Program-made: the position numbers and the translations under genes | In this document: positions 7,742 to 23,499 of the stretch, one piece after another | Numbering within the stretch: position 1 is the first letter of the stretch | Layout: each line of letters starts with the position of its first letter | The notes under the pieces: generated by a model | Databases searched by the model: none | Seen by the model: only the letters and a program-made list of their open reading frames with translations | What the model was told of the DNA's origin: nothing | DNA from: Bacillota bacterium | GTDB taxonomy: Bacteria; Bacillota; Bacilli; Alicyclobacillales; Alicyclobacillaceae | Length of the DNA stretch: 36,278 bases | Assembly (NCBI GenBank): GCA_027336365.1 | Contig: DAHWFY010000008.1 | Location: 1 to 36,278, forward strand | Direction: 5' to 3'

Positions 7742-8212
7742 ATGCAAGAGATTGGCATCAATGGGTCTTCGTCCCATGCCCGCGGGGATGGCACTCTGCG
7801 GGGATTGTCAGCTGTGTTTATTGACGAGAGACGGGTATTCATCGATAATGGGGCGGTTCATGGCAAGAGTCAATTGGAGCGTTCCTTACAGTTTGTAAAA
7901 AATCAAGGGGAACTTAAGCAACCTCGACGGGTTTGGGTGGTCTGGGTGACAATCAAGCGTTTTGCTCAGACGGGTCAGGGATTTCACGGGGCCATGCCAT
8001 TTAGCCTATGGATTGACGAGTCTGGCAAAATGGGATATAAGTCGCTGGCAGAACAAGTGAATCAAATGGATCGGGCCATTCAGGGACGAGTTAACTTAGA
8101 AGGAATGTCCCCTGAAGAGCGAAATGAGCTGAAAGAATATTTAAAATCTGATAACAACAAACATTTATGGGAGAATGCGACACGAGAATTTCGGGAGGCG
8201 TTTGGGGATTGA
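7742..8212 (+). CDS. ywhD: YwhD-family protein
   Basis: LSAVFIDERRVFIDNGAVHGKSQLERSLQFV...VWVVWVTIKR...MGYKSLAEQVNQMDRAI resembles the YwhD family pattern. Confidence 0.7.
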   Translation: MQEIGINGSSSHARGDGTLRGLSAVFIDERRVFIDNGAVHGKSQLERSLQFVKNQGELKQPRRVWVVWVTIKRFAQTGQGFHGAMPFSLWIDESGKMGYKSLAEQVNQMDRAIQGRVNLEGMSPEERNELKEYLKSDNNKHLWENATREFREAFGD

Positions 8213-8250
8213 CATGGGTCCATCCTGCTGTTCATACGGAGGGTTATCCA

Positions 8251-9729
8251 ATGGAAGTCTCGTTGTGTCAAGAAGACACCCCTCTATTTACAGCCTTGAA
8301 GAATCACGTCGCGCGACGGCCGATTCAGTTCCATATTCCGGCCCATAAAGGGGGGAAGGGAATGAACGGCGAGTTTCAGGACTTTGTGGGGGACAACACA
8401 CTGTCTTTAGATCTGATTAATATCGCTCCATTGGACGATTTGCATCATCCCACGGGACCGATTAAACAGGCTCAGGAGCTTGCGGCAGAGGCATTCGGCG
8501 CAGATTACACTTTTTTTTCGGTGCAGGGAACAAGCACGGCAATTATGACTATGGTTATGTCCACCGTGGGTCCTGGAGACAAGATTCTGGTGCCTCGCAA
8601 CGTTCACAAGTCGGTTCTCACCGGGGTGATGTTGGCTGGGGCACGGCCTGTGTTTTTACACCCTGAGGTGGACATGGAATTGGGAATTATGCACGGACTG
8701 GCGGTGGAGACGGTGGCCGCGGGTTTAAAGGCTCATCCGGACGCTAAGGCTCTGGTGGTGATTAACCCCACTTATTTTGGAGTGGCCTGTGACTTGAGTC
8801 AGATTGTGCGCATGGCCCATGAGCACCAGGTGCCTGTACTGGTGGATGAGGCCCACGGCGTGCACACGGGATTTCATGAAAAACTTCCCATTTCTGCCAT
8901 GGCTGCGGGAGCAGACATGGCTGCCACCAGTGTTCACAAGCTGGGTGGTTCCATGACTCAGTCTAGCATATTGAATGTCCGGGCAGGACGAGTGGATCCT
9001 CGGCATGTGCAGGTGGTTTTGAGTATGCTCACAACCACATCCACATCTTATCTCCTGCTGGCTTCTCTTGATGTGGCTCGCAAAGAGTTGGCTTTACGGG
9101 GGCGAGCAAATATGGAACGGGCCATTCAGTTGGCGGAATCGGCCCGCACAGCCATCAATCAAATTTCTGGATTGCACTGTGCTGGCGAGGAAATTTTGCG
9201 GTCCAGTGCGGCTGTGGCTTTGGACCCCACCAAACTGACCATCAGCGTGAAGGACCTGGGAATCACGGGCTATGATGTGGAGCGAATGTTGCGGGAAGAG
9301 TTTAATATTGAGGTTGAACTGAGTGACCTGTACAACATTTTGTGTATTCTGTCTTGGGGAGATAGTCGGTTGGATGTCGAGGCATTGGTGAGTGCTTTGA
9401 CGGCGATTTCCGAAACATACCAGGGTCAACTGGGAAAACGAGAAGTTAAAGTCCATGTTCCAGCGGTCCCAGACTTGGCCATGTCGCCGCGGGAAGCTTT
9501 TTATGCGGCCACGGAAACCGTCCTTCTTACCCGTTCGGTGGGGCGCACCATTGCGGAAATGATTATGGTGTATCCACCGGGAATTCCAATATTATTACCT
9601 GGAGAAGTTGTGGAACAGCAAAACGTAGATTATATTGAAGAAAACTTGCGCGCAGGTCTCCCGGTGCAGGGGCCAGACGACCCAGAAATTCGGTTTGTCA
9701 AGGTGGTTCGGGAGGACGTGCGTAACTGA
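8251..9729 (+). CDS. speA: Orn/Lys/Arg decarboxylase (arginine decarboxylase SpeA-like)
   Basis: FHIPAHKGGKGMN...SVQGTSTAIMTMVMS...VDEAHGVHTGFHEKLP...ATSVHKLGGSMTQSS (PLP lysine); ATG at 8251. Confidence 0.92.
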   Translation: MEVSLCQEDTPLFTALKNHVARRPIQFHIPAHKGGKGMNGEFQDFVGDNTLSLDLINIAPLDDLHHPTGPIKQAQELAAEAFGADYTFFSVQGTSTAIMTMVMSTVGPGDKILVPRNVHKSVLTGVMLAGARPVFLHPEVDMELGIMHGLAVETVAAGLKAHPDAKALVVINPTYFGVACDLSQIVRMAHEHQVPVLVDEAHGVHTGFHEKLPISAMAAGADMAATSVHKLGGSMTQSSILNVRAGRVDPRHVQVVLSMLTTTSTSYLLLASLDVARKELALRGRANMERAIQLAESARTAINQISGLHCAGEEILRSSAAVALDPTKLTISVKDLGITGYDVERMLREEFNIEVELSDLYNILCILSWGDSRLDVEALVSALTAISETYQGQLGKREVKVHVPAVPDLAMSPREAFYAATETVLLTRSVGRTIAEMIMVYPPGIPILLPGEVVEQQNVDYIEENLRAGLPVQGPDDPEIRFVKVVREDVRN

Positions 9730-9741
9730 GGAGTGTCGACT

Positions 9742-10209
9742 GTGAATCTGTTGAAATTAGGGGATGAGGCACCGGACTTTACACTTCCGGCTTATCCTCA
9801 GGGAGTCGTGACCTTATCGCAACACAGAGGGAAAATCGTAGTGTTGTTCTTTTATCCAAAGGACAATACTCCTGGGTGAACGCAGGAGGCCTCTAACTTT
9901 CGCGACCTTTTGTCCGAGTTTGCGGAAGTGGGCGCCGTCGTGTATGGCGTCTCCAAAGACTCTCTGAGCTCCCATGAAAAATTCGCCACTAAATACAACC
10001 TGAACATGTCTTTGCTTTCCGATGTGGACAAGTCGGTCTGTGATGCATATGGGGTTTTACGGGAAAAAGTTAATTTTGGGAAAATCTCCGTTGGTGTGGT
10101 TCGGACCACTTTCGTGATTGGAACTGATGGGAAAATTGCCATGCTTTATCCTAATGTGAAGGTAAATGGGCATGCTCAGACGGTTCTTGACTTTGTGCGT
10201 CAAATGTAA
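9742..10209 (+). CDS. bcp: Bcp-type peroxiredoxin with in-frame TGA (9877-9879) at the peroxidatic Cys position; candidate selenoprotein
   Basis: Continuous frame from GTG 9742: (V)NLLKLGDEAPDFTLPAYPQGVVTLSQHRGKIVVLFFYPKDNTPG-[TGA]-TQEASNFRDLLSEFAEVGAVVYGVSKDSLSSHEKFATKYNLNMSLLSDVDKSVCDAYGV...TTFVIGTDGKI; the canonical motif is YFYPKDxTPGCTxEAxxFRD. Confidence 0.85.
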
Positions 10210-10234: not shown

Positions 10235-10588
10235 ATGGTAAAACTTACGGACAGTGCAGTGCGCAAGCTCCAGGATATGATTGGCAATGCTTCGGAGGGT
10301 GAGGATGTCCTACGAATTTTCATCAAACCCGGTGGATGCTCGGGGTTCAGTTATGGACTGGCCCTGGATACTCCACAGGAACAGGACGAGGTGTTTGACG
10401 TCCAAGGTATATCCGTGATTGTGGACTCCAACAGCTTGGACTTGGTGAAAGGTTCGGAAGTCGACTATGTACAGGATTTCACTGGCGAGGGTTTTCGTAT
10501 TTGGAACCCTAATGCCATTTCCACTTGCGGTTGTGGCTCCAGTTTTCATACTCGAGATCAAGCTGGGCATCCCGGTTCGTGTCTGTAA
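10235..10588 (+). CDS. A-type iron-sulfur cluster assembly protein (IscA/ErpA/HesB family)
   Basis: MVKLTDSAVRKLQ...IKPGGCSGFSYGLALD...NPNAISTCGCGSSFH: three-Cys A-type scaffold signature. Confidence 0.93.
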   Translation: MVKLTDSAVRKLQDMIGNASEGEDVLRIFIKPGGCSGFSYGLALDTPQEQDEVFDVQGISVIVDSNSLDLVKGSEVDYVQDFTGEGFRIWNPNAISTCGCGSSFHTRDQAGHPGSCL

Positions 10589-16692: not shown

Positions 16693-17568
16693 TTATGCGA
16701 ATTCCTTGAGGGTCTCCGCAAAAATTTCTGGGTTCAATTGCAGGTCCTGCTGTGCGATAGGAGTGGTTTGATACCCAGGAATTTGATCTTCATAGTCTTG
16801 TCGATGGTCATCTCTGTAGATTAGGCCTGTGCAAAGGCCCTGTGTTTCTATCACGGTTTTCATGGCTTCCATACGGCTGGTTGGATCGTATCCGTCTACC
16901 TTGTCTAGGTTGACAATGTTCTCCCGGAAAAAATCATATGTGTTGACCTTGTTGTAGGTGACACAAGGGCTGAACACGTTCACCAGAGCAAATCCCTTGT
17001 ACTGAATGGCCTGTTCAATCAGAGACACCAGTTGGTTCACATCACTGGAAAATCCCTGAGCTAAAAAGCCAATGTCCGCGCCTAAAGCAATTTGTGCCGG
17101 AACGACCGCATTTTCAATGTTCCCTGCGGGTGCCGTTTTAGCTGTAAAGCCATGAGCGCTCGTGGGGGAGTGTTGCCCCTTGGTCAGTCCATAAATATGA
17201 TTATCCATCACGATGTAGGTAATATCCATATTTCTTCGCACAGAGTGCATAAAGTGATTGAGACCGATACCGAATCCGTCTCCATCGCCACCTGCGGCAA
17301 TCACCGTCAGGTCACGATTGGCCAGCTTCAGTCCCTGTGCCGCAGGTAAAGCTCTGCCATGGACACCGTGGAAACCATAAGTGTTGATGTATCCTGAAAT
17401 TCTTCCTGAGCAACCAATACCGGAGATCACGGCGACTTCGTGGGGCTGCTTACCCAGGGATGCCAAAGCCCGTTGAATGGACGCCTGAACAGAGAAATCT
17501 CCGCACCCTGGACACCAATTGGGCCGCACATCATTGCGAAAGTCCTTGACCGTTACCGTCGTCGTCAT
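16693..17568 (-). CDS. korB: 2-oxoacid:ferredoxin oxidoreductase, beta subunit (KorB-like), paralog 1
   Basis: RPNWCPGCGDFSVQASIQRAL...VISGIGCSGRISGYINTYGFHGVHGRALPAAQGLKLAN...GGDGDGFGIGLNHFMHSVRRN: TPP-binding beta subunit. Confidence 0.92.
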   Translation of the reverse strand: MTTTVTVKDFRNDVRPNWCPGCGDFSVQASIQRALASLGKQPHEVAVISGIGCSGRISGYINTYGFHGVHGRALPAAQGLKLANRDLTVIAAGGDGDGFGIGLNHFMHSVRRNMDITYIVMDNHIYGLTKGQHSPTSAHGFTAKTAPAGNIENAVVPAQIALGADIGFLAQGFSSDVNQLVSLIEQAIQYKGFALVNVFSPCVTYNKVNTYDFFRENIVNLDKVDGYDPTSRMEAMKTVIETQGLCTGLIYRDDHRQDYEDQIPGYQTTPIAQQDLQLNPEIFAETLKEFA

Positions 17569-17569
17569 C

Positions 17570-19303
17570 TTAAAACATCCCCTTGACAAAGTGATGAATT
17601 TCGATGGGCAGGAACGCTGAACCGTCATATTTGAGAAAACTTGACACTTGCGGGTGTTCCACGCCAAAGTGGGACATCAGATGGCGCAATTGCCCAGTGG
17701 CATTGTTCTCCACAACGACCACACGCTCGGCATCGGCTAGCGATTGCTGTAGGGTCTGCACCGGGAAAGGTAACAGAGTATGCAAGTGAACATGGGCGGC
17801 GGTGATGCCGTCTTCACGAAGACGTTCACAAGCCTCATCGATAGCCCCGATGTTGGCCCCCATGCCTAGGATGGCCACCTGTGGATTGTTGTCTCCAGTT
17901 CGCACCAGACTCCCGGCAAGTTCAACTCCCTCAAGCTTGTGTAGACGTTTGTCCATCATGTTTGTGCGATTGAGAACCGCTTCGTTTGGACGACCATTCT
18001 CAGAATGCTCCACGCCGGTAACCTTGTGAATACCTCCCTGAGTGCCGGGGAATGCTCTGGGCGAAATACCCGTTTCTGTGAGCAGATAGCGCTTGAATTC
18101 CTCACCGTGATCTGGCCGTTCTTTCGCTAGCATGTCCGGTGTTGCGATGCTACCCCGATCTATGATTACCTTTTCTAACTCAAAGGGCTCCGTTGTTTGT
18201 TTACTCAGGGACAACTGTAAATCGGTCAGAACAATGACTGGGCATTGATAATGGTCTGCAAGGTTAAAAGCTTCTCCCATAGAATAGAAGCACTCTTCTG
18301 GGGTGGCTGGGAATAAAACGATTTTAGGGATTTCACCATGGGTGCCAAACATTCCAGCAAACAGGTCTGATTGTTCCTGTTTTGTAGGAAGTCCAGTGGA
18401 CGGCCCACCCCGTTGGGTATCAATAATGACTGCAGGGGTTTCCGTCATCCCCGCCAAGCCTATGGCCTCCATCATCAAGGCCAATCCCGGTCCGGACGTG
18501 GCGGTAAAGGCACGTGCGCCACCGTAGGCAGCCCCAATTGTCATGTTCATAGCGGCAATTTCATCCTCTGTCTGTACAACTACGCCGCCCACTTTGGGGA
18601 ATTTCTTAATCAGATACTCCATCACATCCGATGCTGGTGTGATGGGGTATGCGGGCATCACGCGAGCCCCAGCCGCCAGAGCACCCAAAGCCAAAGCGTC
18701 GTTACCCATCATAAACAGGCGATGAGTTCCATCGGCCGATTTCAGTGCAAAACTGGGATCGGCTCCACCCGCTTCTTTGATGAATTCATATCCCCGTCGA
18801 ATAGCCTCAGTGTTTTGATCTACAACTTTCTGGCCTTTGCGGTGGAACCGTTCCTCGGCAACTTCGGTAAAAGTTTCAATGGGCAGTCCCAATACGGCTG
18901 CAGATGCCCCCAGGGACACCATGTTTTTCATGATGGCCGAACCGCACTCTTCCGCAATGCTGGTGAGAGGGACCGCAAACAGTCGCACGTGATCCGGTGC
19001 CGTCGGATTGAATTTTTCATCCGCAATGACGATGCCATTTGTGCGGACCTCGCCAGCCTCCAAGTCGATGGTGTCCTGGTCAAAGGCTAGGAGCACGTCC
19101 GTGTAATCGGTGCTGGTTCGGTATTGTTTCAGGCTGACCCGTACTTTATCATTGGAGTGGCCTCCTTTAATACGGGATGAAAATTGACGGAAAGAGTACA
19201 CATAATACCCGCGTCGGTTGAGTGCGACAGCGAACGTTTCACCCGTACTTTCCACGCCTTCGCCTTGCTGTCCGCCAACCTTCCACGAAAGTTGCTCTAG
19301 CAT
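17570..19303 (-). CDS. korA: 2-oxoacid:ferredoxin oxidoreductase, alpha(gamma-fused) subunit (KorA-like), paralog 1
   Basis: SWKVGGQQGEGVESTGETFAVALNRRGYYVYSFRQFSSRIKGGHSNDKVR...AYPITPASDVMEYL...VVVQTEDEIAAMNMTIGAAYGGARAFTATSGPGLALM. Confidence 0.93.
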   Translation of the reverse strand: MLEQLSWKVGGQQGEGVESTGETFAVALNRRGYYVYSFRQFSSRIKGGHSNDKVRVSLKQYRTSTDYTDVLLAFDQDTIDLEAGEVRTNGIVIADEKFNPTAPDHVRLFAVPLTSIAEECGSAIMKNMVSLGASAAVLGLPIETFTEVAEERFHRKGQKVVDQNTEAIRRGYEFIKEAGGADPSFALKSADGTHRLFMMGNDALALGALAAGARVMPAYPITPASDVMEYLIKKFPKVGGVVVQTEDEIAAMNMTIGAAYGGARAFTATSGPGLALMMEAIGLAGMTETPAVIIDTQRGGPSTGLPTKQEQSDLFAGMFGTHGEIPKIVLFPATPEECFYSMGEAFNLADHYQCPVIVLTDLQLSLSKQTTEPFELEKVIIDRGSIATPDMLAKERPDHGEEFKRYLLTETGISPRAFPGTQGGIHKVTGVEHSENGRPNEAVLNRTNMMDKRLHKLEGVELAGSLVRTGDNNPQVAILGMGANIGAIDEACERLREDGITAAHVHLHTLLPFPVQTLQQSLADAERVVVVENNATGQLRHLMSHFGVEHPQVSSFLKYDGSAFLPIEIHHFVKGMF

Positions 19304-20869: not shown

Positions 20870-22636
20870 ATGTCAGGAGATATTGGTTGGAAGGTGGGCG
20901 GCAGGCAGGGAGAGGGCATTGACAGCACCGGGGACATTTATGCTGTAGCCTTGCATCGCATGGGATACTACGTATTCACATATCGCCACTTCATGTCTTT
21001 GATTAAAGGCGGACACACCAATTACAAGGTGCGCAGTTCTGACCAGGTTTTGCGCCATCACGGAGACTTGGTGCATGTCTTGGTGGCCTTTGACCAGACC
21101 ACCATCACTCATAATTGGCATGAGTTGGCCGACGGGGCAGTGGTGATTTATGACACGGCCGCCTTCAAGGCAAAGGCACCTGATGATAGAAATATCAATT
21201 TGTGTGGAGTACCTCTCACCGAATTGGCCAAAAATGCTGGAAGTTCCATTATGAAAAACATGGTTGCCATCGGTGCCAGTATTTGCATTCACGAGTTGGA
21301 ACTGGAATCCCTGCGGCCGGTGGTGGAAGATAAGTTTGGCAAGAAAGGTCCGACGGTGGTGGAACAAAACATGGAGGCTCTGCATCAGGGGTACGTGTAC
21401 TTCAATGAGCATTTTTCTGCTCGTTTTCCGTTGCCACCGATTAAAAAATCCACTCACTCATTACCGTCAGCGCGACTATACGCCTCCGGTAACCAAGCGG
21501 TGGGGTTTGGTGCTTTGGCAGGAGGTTGTCGCTTTCTGTCTGCTTATCCCATTACCCCAGCGACGGAAATCATGTACTGGGCGTTGGCACAGTTTCCTCG
21601 TTACGGAGGAGTCGTGGTGCAGGCCGAAGATGAGATTGCCGCGATGAACATGGCCATTGGTGCAAATTTCGCTGGGGTAAGAGCCATGACCTCCACGTCT
21701 GGACCTGGCTTTTCTCTGATGATGGAAGCTTTAGGCTTAGCCGGAATGTCCGAGACCCCTGTGGTTGTTGTGGATGTTCAACGTAGTGGCCCGTCCACAG
21801 GTTTACCTACAAAAACGGAACAGAGTGACTTGAATGAGGCTCTCCATGGAACTCACGGAGAAATTCAAAGAATTGTTTTGACACCACGCACGGTAGAAGA
21901 GTGTTTTTTGCTCACCGCTGAGGCGTTCAATTTGGCAGAACGCTACCAGCTACCGGTCATTGTTTTATCTGACCTGTACATGGGCATGTCTTCTCAAACC
22001 ATTGATGAATTTCCACTGGATAAAATTCATCATGAGCGGGGCAAGTTACTGCAAGAAGTGGATCTGGAGAAGTTTGGGTCATACACATACCAGCGCTACA
22101 ATGCGGATGTGCTTGACGGAATCTCTCCTCGCGCTCTGCCTGGCCAAAAGAACGGTCGATATGTGGCTTTGGGCAATGAGCACAGCGGAGTCGGTCTGGA
22201 GATTGAAGACCTGGCCACTCGGCGGGCCCAGGTGGGGAAGCGCCAACGCAAATTGCTCAACTTTCAACACTTTACGGGGATTCACTTGGACGGGGATGTC
22301 CATTCTCCCTTGGCACTGATTGGTTTCGGCAGTACTTGGGGAGTGATGGAAGAGGCACGAATTGCATTAAACACCAACGGGCTACAGGTAAAACACATCC
22401 ATTTTTCACGAGTGGCTCCTTTTCCGACTGAAGAGTTTAAAGAGGCCATGAAGGGGGTCCAAACGGCTCTGGTGGTGGAACAAAACAGTACCGGGCAGTT
22501 GGCGGACCTGATTCAAAAAGAGGTGGGATTCCACGACCGTTTGGAGCGTTGCCTGCGCTTTGACGGAGACCCCTTTACTTTACAGGAAATCATCACACGC
22601 AGTGAGCAAGTTTTTCCTTTGGGGGTGCATCATTGA
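20870..22636 (+). CDS. korA: 2-oxoacid:ferredoxin oxidoreductase, alpha subunit (KorA-like), paralog 2
   Basis: GWKVGGRQGEGIDSTGDIYAVALHRMGYYVFTYRHFMSLIKGGHTNYKVR...AYPITPATEIMYWAL...VVVQAEDEIAAMNMAIGANFAGVRAMTSTSGPGFSLM. Confidence 0.93.
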   Translation: MSGDIGWKVGGRQGEGIDSTGDIYAVALHRMGYYVFTYRHFMSLIKGGHTNYKVRSSDQVLRHHGDLVHVLVAFDQTTITHNWHELADGAVVIYDTAAFKAKAPDDRNINLCGVPLTELAKNAGSSIMKNMVAIGASICIHELELESLRPVVEDKFGKKGPTVVEQNMEALHQGYVYFNEHFSARFPLPPIKKSTHSLPSARLYASGNQAVGFGALAGGCRFLSAYPITPATEIMYWALAQFPRYGGVVVQAEDEIAAMNMAIGANFAGVRAMTSTSGPGFSLMMEALGLAGMSETPVVVVDVQRSGPSTGLPTKTEQSDLNEALHGTHGEIQRIVLTPRTVEECFLLTAEAFNLAERYQLPVIVLSDLYMGMSSQTIDEFPLDKIHHERGKLLQEVDLEKFGSYTYQRYNADVLDGISPRALPGQKNGRYVALGNEHSGVGLEIEDLATRRAQVGKRQRKLLNFQHFTGIHLDGDVHSPLALIGFGSTWGVMEEARIALNTNGLQVKHIHFSRVAPFPTEEFKEAMKGVQTALVVEQNSTGQLADLIQKEVGFHDRLERCLRFDGDPFTLQEIITRSEQVFPLGVHH

Positions 22637-23499
22637 TGTCAACCATCGCGGATTTTAAAACTGAAAAACCCACTTGGTGTCCGGGTTGTGGGGACTTTGG
22701 GGTATTGAATGCGATGCAAAAGGCCTGCGTCAATCTGGGACTGACACCAGAGAAGGTTGTGGTAGTTTCTGGAATCGGTTGCTCGGGGAAAATGTCGCAA
22801 CACTTCGGTGGATATGGGGTTCATTCTTTACATGGACGGTCTTTGCCTACCGCCCAAGCGGTCAAATTAGCCAATCGAGAGCTAACGGTGTTTGCCGCCG
22901 GAGGGGATGGAGATGGCTATGGAATTGGCATGGGACATTTTATTCATGCCATGAGGCGCAACGTGGATGTGACCTATGTGGTCATGGATAATCACATTTA
23001 TGGATTGACGACGGGTCAGGCATCGCCCACCAGTGACGTAGGACATGAAACAAAAACTTCACCACACGGAACGATTGAACAGCCTATTGTTCCCTTGCAA
23101 CTGGCAATGGCGCAACACTGTGGCTTTGTTGCCCAAGGATTTTCCGGGAACATCAAACAACTTGTTTCTCTGATGGAACGAGCAGTAACACATAAAGGTT
23201 TTTCTCTTGTCAATGTCTTCAGTCCCTGCGTAACTTTTAATAAGGTTAACACCTACGAGTTTTACCGGGATCATTTGGTGAATTTGGATGAGGAAGAAAG
23301 CTACAATCCCCAGGACCGTTTGGCAGCCTTGGACCGCGTGGCGGCGGCTAACAATCTGGTCACCGGGGTGATCTACGAAGACTTGGATCGGCCAAGTTTT
23401 GCAGAACAGTTGTATGGTTATCCTGAGCAGCCTTTGACACAAGTCAACCTGGCGCTCAGTGAAGAAAGTTATGAGGAAATTCTTTCTAGTTTCCGATAG
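22636..23499 (+). CDS. korB: 2-oxoacid:ferredoxin oxidoreductase, beta subunit (KorB-like), paralog 2
   Basis: KPTWCPGCGDFGVLNAMQKACVNLG...VSGIGCSGKMSQHFGGYGVHSLHGRSLPTAQAVKLAN...GGDGDGYGIGMGHFIHAMRRN; ATG overlaps the korA stop (TGATG). Confidence 0.92.
   Translation: MSTIADFKTEKPTWCPGCGDFGVLNAMQKACVNLGLTPEKVVVVSGIGCSGKMSQHFGGYGVHSLHGRSLPTAQAVKLANRELTVFAAGGDGDGYGIGMGHFIHAMRRNVDVTYVVMDNHIYGLTTGQASPTSDVGHETKTSPHGTIEQPIVPLQLAMAQHCGFVAQGFSGNIKQLVSLMERAVTHKGFSLVNVFSPCVTFNKVNTYEFYRDHLVNLDEEESYNPQDRLAALDRVAAANNLVTGVIYEDLDRPSFAEQLYGYPEQPLTQVNLALSEESYEEILSSFR

Follow-up and report, generated by a model that had tools for sequence, protein, structure and literature searches.

Selenocysteine (Sec)-containing peroxiredoxins with a TxxU motif are a catalogued family within COG1225 (Bcp) (PMC9312934; PMC13188914). 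The first example, as both of these reviews cite it, came from Eubacterium acidaminophilum (Soehling 2001). By 2016, 91 examples from 78 organisms had been counted (PMC5029168), and several Cys-to-Sec events had been proposed for peroxiredoxins in 2006 (PMC1794560). In PrxQ/Bcp proteins, a Gly residue directly precedes the catalytic residue in the motif PxxxTPG (PMC5302317). The searched text of the two reviews (PMC9312934; PMC13188914) does not mention Alicyclobacillus, and we found no report of a Sec peroxiredoxin in this genus in the largely non-subscription literature searched.

The window, the 36,278-nucleotide stretch of DNA analyzed here, comes from a bacterium related to Alicyclobacillus and, judging from its sequence, very probably contains a further example of this family in a new lineage. 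Since Sec-containing Bcp-type peroxiredoxins are already catalogued, the gene adds a member to a known kind; for the Alicyclobacillus-related lineage, it is a clear predicted selenoprotein backed by the machinery. With the COG1225 Sec peroxiredoxins it shares the peroxiredoxin fold, U at the peroxidatic position of PxxxTxxU, and Sec machinery in the genome, whereas it differs in its origin from Alicyclobacillus-related Bacilli and in the replacement of the resolving Cys at position +5 by Ser. Homology to PrxQ/Bcp proteins (E. coli Bcp-type, NF006960; solved relatives 5enu, 5iph, and 3gkn) extends over the whole length, and in both cases Gly stands directly before the catalytic residue; however, the predicted active site has Sec instead of Cys, and the resolving Cys at +5 is missing. 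PrxU (NF040737), an AhpC/Prx1-type Sec peroxiredoxin, also has Sec as the peroxidatic residue and is a distant superfamily match, but the window protein belongs to another subfamily, scoring 60.1 bits against the NF040737 cut-off of 270.

The peroxiredoxin gene and its in-frame TGA

Translation through the TGA codon yields a protein with the segment FFYPKDNTPG-U-TQEASNFRDLL, and this TGA is the sole interruption of the frame. The features of the locus are as follows.

8167..9729, + strand: upstream neighbor, an Orn/Lys/Arg decarboxylase-like PLP enzyme, its own stop being TGA (9727-9729)
9730..9733, + strand: GGAG, a Shine-Dalgarno-like element recognized from the sequence, 8 nt 5' of the GTG start
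9742..10209, + strand: PrxQ/Bcp peroxiredoxin gene, 155 residues with predicted Sec as residue 46, GTG start, TAA stop
9877..9879, + strand: in-frame TGA (predicted UGA-Sec) as the peroxidatic codon within PxxxTPGU; 39 orthologues encode Cys here and 18 have TGA
9880..9939, + strand: candidate bacterial SECIS hairpin, with a ACUUUCGCGA/UUGCGGAAGU stem, a CUU/GAG top stem, and the apical loop UUGUCC
9892..9894, + strand: codon of Ser51, the +5 position, at which most Cys orthologues have the resolving Cys
10039..10041, + strand: codon of Cys100 (DKSVCDAYG), kept in 17/18 orthologues of the Sec type and 33/39 of the Cys type
10235..10588, + strand: downstream neighbor, an ErpA/IscA-type Fe-S carrier in its Cys form

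The GGAG element directly abuts the stop codon of the decarboxylase-like gene. The read-through protein matches PF00578 (AhpC-TSA) at 2.6e-40 with 137.6 bits, and its score with the PRK09437/Bcp model NF006960 is 140.9 bits over residues 2-154 of 155, narrowly above the curated cut-off of 140. The segment PKDNTPG-U has the Gly immediately before the catalytic residue that is typical of PrxQ/Bcp, and T43-P-G-U46 corresponds to the TxxU motif of the Sec-containing family, with TGA aligned with the peroxidatic Cys. A preliminary description of this DNA had placed the TGA exactly at the catalytic Cys of a Bcp-type peroxiredoxin, in a frame otherwise undisrupted from GTG 9742 to TAA 10209. Both the translation and the orthologue alignment agree with it, as they do with its mention of Ser at +5 and of a further Cys in DVDKSVCDAYG.

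Mechanical ORF calling on the window recovers only 9910-10209, as the same description had reported, and the active site is missing from this product. Thus, ordinary gene calling, by placing the start after the TGA, hides the active site of the peroxiredoxin. Taken at face value, such a call would mean that translation begins internally, at TTG 9910 for example, and yields only a truncated protein, with the upstream part forming a peptide of its own. However, that product would have neither the catalytic residue nor the first strands of the fold, and in all orthologues the upstream part is kept as peroxiredoxin sequence in frame with the remainder. We consider this explanation to have a negligible probability.

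Conservation among relatives

The comparison covered 61 genomes, the window's own and 60 relatives, each represented by its best peroxiredoxin orthologue. The best orthologue is interrupted by one TGA in 18 of the 61 genomes. Among the 57 orthologues that were re-extracted and aligned, these 18 all have TGA at the peroxidatic codon, TGC or TGT occupies it in the remaining 39, and no TGA is found at any other codon, a pattern beyond coincidence. The only congener among the genomes compared (G001) shares this TGA codon in a protein of 75% identity, and the gene order around it is that of the window, with a decarboxylase upstream and an ErpA-like carrier downstream; 16 further relatives also carry TGA at the peroxidatic codon. 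For the codons after the TGA, comparison with this congener gives dN of 0.16, dS of 1.33, and omega of about 0.12. The part after the TGA is under strong purifying selection. Upstream dN/dS values for distant pairs were set aside as saturated or possibly mis-registered through indels. A homologue search of the genome contigs gave mostly matches from distant phyla, with one family member named, Alicyclobacillus sp. HOT.Cluster.61.

These data bear on the possibility that the gene is a pseudogene or carries a sequencing error, TGA being either a misread TGC or TGT or a genuine nonsense mutation. A single base change turns either Cys codon into TGA, and the assembly is fragmented. On the other hand, the identical TGA recurs in 17 other genomes, including a congener whose protein is 25% divergent, selection on the downstream part is strong, and the frame has no second disruption. 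Since this congener was sequenced independently and shares the TGA, an error of sequencing is very unlikely, and the shared codon, the neighbors in this congener, and the dN/dS ratio after TGA together make both error and decay very unlikely, so that we assign this explanation hardly any weight. Decay of the gene in close relatives, named in the preliminary description among the observations that would refute Sec insertion, is not what these relatives show; the gene is conserved in them.

Two other types of TGA-interrupted peroxiredoxin genes can be observed in the dataset. One is found in the window's own genome on contig C83 (L004:1501-1878); it is of the AhpC/PrxU type and has U as the peroxidatic residue (FSFVUPTE), and its best NCBIfam match is PrxU, under the cut-off. 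The other is a group of loci, L172-L179, from the genomes G046, G042, G045, G041, G037, G049, G022, and G048, with the motif FYPLDWTPVU(G/S)AQMPSYEDD, in which the catalytic residue follows Val, like that of the AhpE group, and with strong post-UGA folding.

Selenocysteine machinery and the post-UGA hairpin

A genome-wide search for selA, selB, selC, and selD and for a tRNA with the UCA anticodon, proposed in the preliminary description, found all of them away from the window. The genome encodes SelA (564 bits), SelB (361 bits), and two SelD proteins, all above the family cut-offs, together with a tRNA-Sec that scores 69.3 bits against a cut-off of 47 and is called tRNA-SeC with the anticodon TCA by ARAGORN. 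The location of the sel genes on other contigs is explained by fragmentation of the assembly, which is 83% complete in 366 contigs. SelA retains the segment SGDKLLGG, taken here as the PLP-lysine motif. Each of the two selD genes has one in-frame TGA, in SPGAGU and TSCSGU, respectively, and hence both SelD proteins look like selenoproteins themselves. A related observation comes from the near-complete genome G020, where SelA, SelB, and tRNA-Sec are not found above the cut-offs and an orphan selD with an in-frame TGA is present (L184). Over 1,930 bp, this gene shares 96.2% identity with one selD copy of the window's genome (L182, contig C19), although the genus is different; the likeness reflects either horizontal transfer or bin contamination.

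Could the UGA be read as Cys, or as another standard residue, by an unusual tRNA with the UCA anticodon or by near-cognate read-through? UGA-recoding tRNAs are known in other bacteria, the TGA sits precisely at the Cys position, and an enzyme with Cys there would work as well. However, the only tRNA with the UCA anticodon that we found is the canonical tRNA-Sec; in this 83% complete genome, the 33 other tRNA loci are ordinary and contain no further UCA anticodon, with CCA for Trp and GCA for Cys. Moreover, SelA, SelB, and SelD are all present, and recoding to Cys leaves the extra structure after the UGA unexplained. This explanation is therefore very improbable. UGA also terminates 7 of the 25 window genes, the decarboxylase-like gene directly upstream among them, which indicates that it is still a normal stop codon. 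Across the dataset, SelA is present in 17/18 genomes with TGA-containing peroxiredoxin genes versus 12/39 genomes with Cys forms (Fisher p=6.8e-6, with related genomes treated as independent).

The preliminary description, made by eye, saw no convincing SECIS hairpin after the UGA; this statement does not hold, given the folding, the covariation, and the comparison of Sec and Cys genes. Region 9877-9945 forms a single long hairpin with a folding energy of -26.9 kcal/mol (z -2.07, 4 of 200 shuffles being as low), with the apical loop about 30 nt 3' of the UGA. In 16 TGA orthologues, 80.5% of cells in this structure are paired and the covariation score is 0.294; neither value is reached by any of the 500 shuffles or by any slid control. 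Relative to synonymous-codon shuffles, post-UGA folding has a mean z of -2.4 in TGA genes and -0.4 in Cys genes (Mann-Whitney p=1.7e-6). The RNAalifold consensus is weak, -1.69 kcal/mol, because the internal helix differs between sequences.

The bSECIS model describes an apical loop 16-37 nt after the UGA, an upper stem of 4-16 bp, and a minimum free energy of -7.5 kcal/mol or lower (PMC13188914), and the window hairpin agrees with it on these points, with its loop 30 nt from the UGA and its energy of -26.9 kcal/mol. The model also asks for G within the first two positions of the apical loop (PMC13188914), which the window loop, UUGUCC, does not have. In minimum free energy folds, such a G is seen in 7/18 Sec orthologues, about the same rate as in Cys genes (12/39), and known selenoprotein genes that miss the model do exist (PMC13188914). 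A strict bSECIS scan gave matches in Sec and Cys genes alike, without discrimination, and the comparison therefore relied on codon-shuffle z-scores and covariation.

Pseudogene formation, sequencing error, recoding to Cys, and an internal start were all rejected on the evidence of conservation, selection, tRNAs, and reading frame. Sec insertion, the reading preferred in the preliminary description, is supported by the sel genes, the tRNA-Sec, and conservation in relatives, and on these genomic grounds the gene very probably encodes a selenoprotein. The UGA at codon 46 would be read as Sec through the SelA/SelB/SelC/SelD system of the organism, and the mRNA hairpin just 3' of the UGA would aid its decoding.

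Proposed catalytic scheme and the state of the Sec system in G028

The predicted product belongs to the PrxQ/Bcp peroxiredoxins and would carry Sec where these have the peroxidatic Cys. The Cys at +5 is present in 1/18 Sec orthologues versus 30/39 Cys orthologues (9/39 are without it), and the window gene has Ser. This widespread absence of the resolving Cys from the Sec genes suggests that the enzyme works with a single Sec and that thioredoxin reduces it directly. In such a one-Sec peroxidase, reduction of H2O2 or organic peroxides would convert the selenolate to a selenenic acid, and thioredoxin or another thiol would then reduce this acid, possibly via Cys100.

On the best tree, the Sec and Cys states require at least six changes, four of them on well-supported branches, with the direction unsettled; the pairs that this tree offers were too few for independent-pairs tests to reach significance. 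With close Sec and Cys orthologues, repeated changes of state, and a resolving Cys mostly lost in the Sec forms, this set is a handy test system, suited to asking what Sec alters in the catalytic cycle of PrxQ.

An example of a different relation between the gene and the machinery is provided by genome G028 (99% complete), which keeps the TGA-containing peroxiredoxin and is missing selA, selB, and selD. Comparison with its congener G010 (two contigs) shows that the three genes were deleted cleanly, with the flanks joined and a 78-bp relic of selB left (loci L194, L195, L197/L198, L187, and L018). The tRNA-Sec is retained, slightly degraded by three substitutions. Because the peroxiredoxin gene is intact and tRNA-Sec is kept in the absence of selA, selB, and selD, UGA in this genome may give another amino acid. 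It is improbable, but conceivable, that the lineage decodes the UGA of this gene even without a canonical Sec system; the window gene itself would stay a Sec protein in that case. The peroxiredoxin core in G028 is one synonymous codon apart from that of G010, but the entire 3.45-kb locus is 98.6% identical, which makes a recent loss of Sec more likely than continued use. Most likely, the UGA-containing gene in G028 was kept because the Sec system was lost recently, and this genome would represent a natural loss of the system caught early.

Elsewhere in the window, the ORF list contains two sets of 2-oxoacid:ferredoxin oxidoreductase-like genes with two subunits each, at 16693-19303 and 20870-23499, which are oppositely oriented on either side of a short intervening region.
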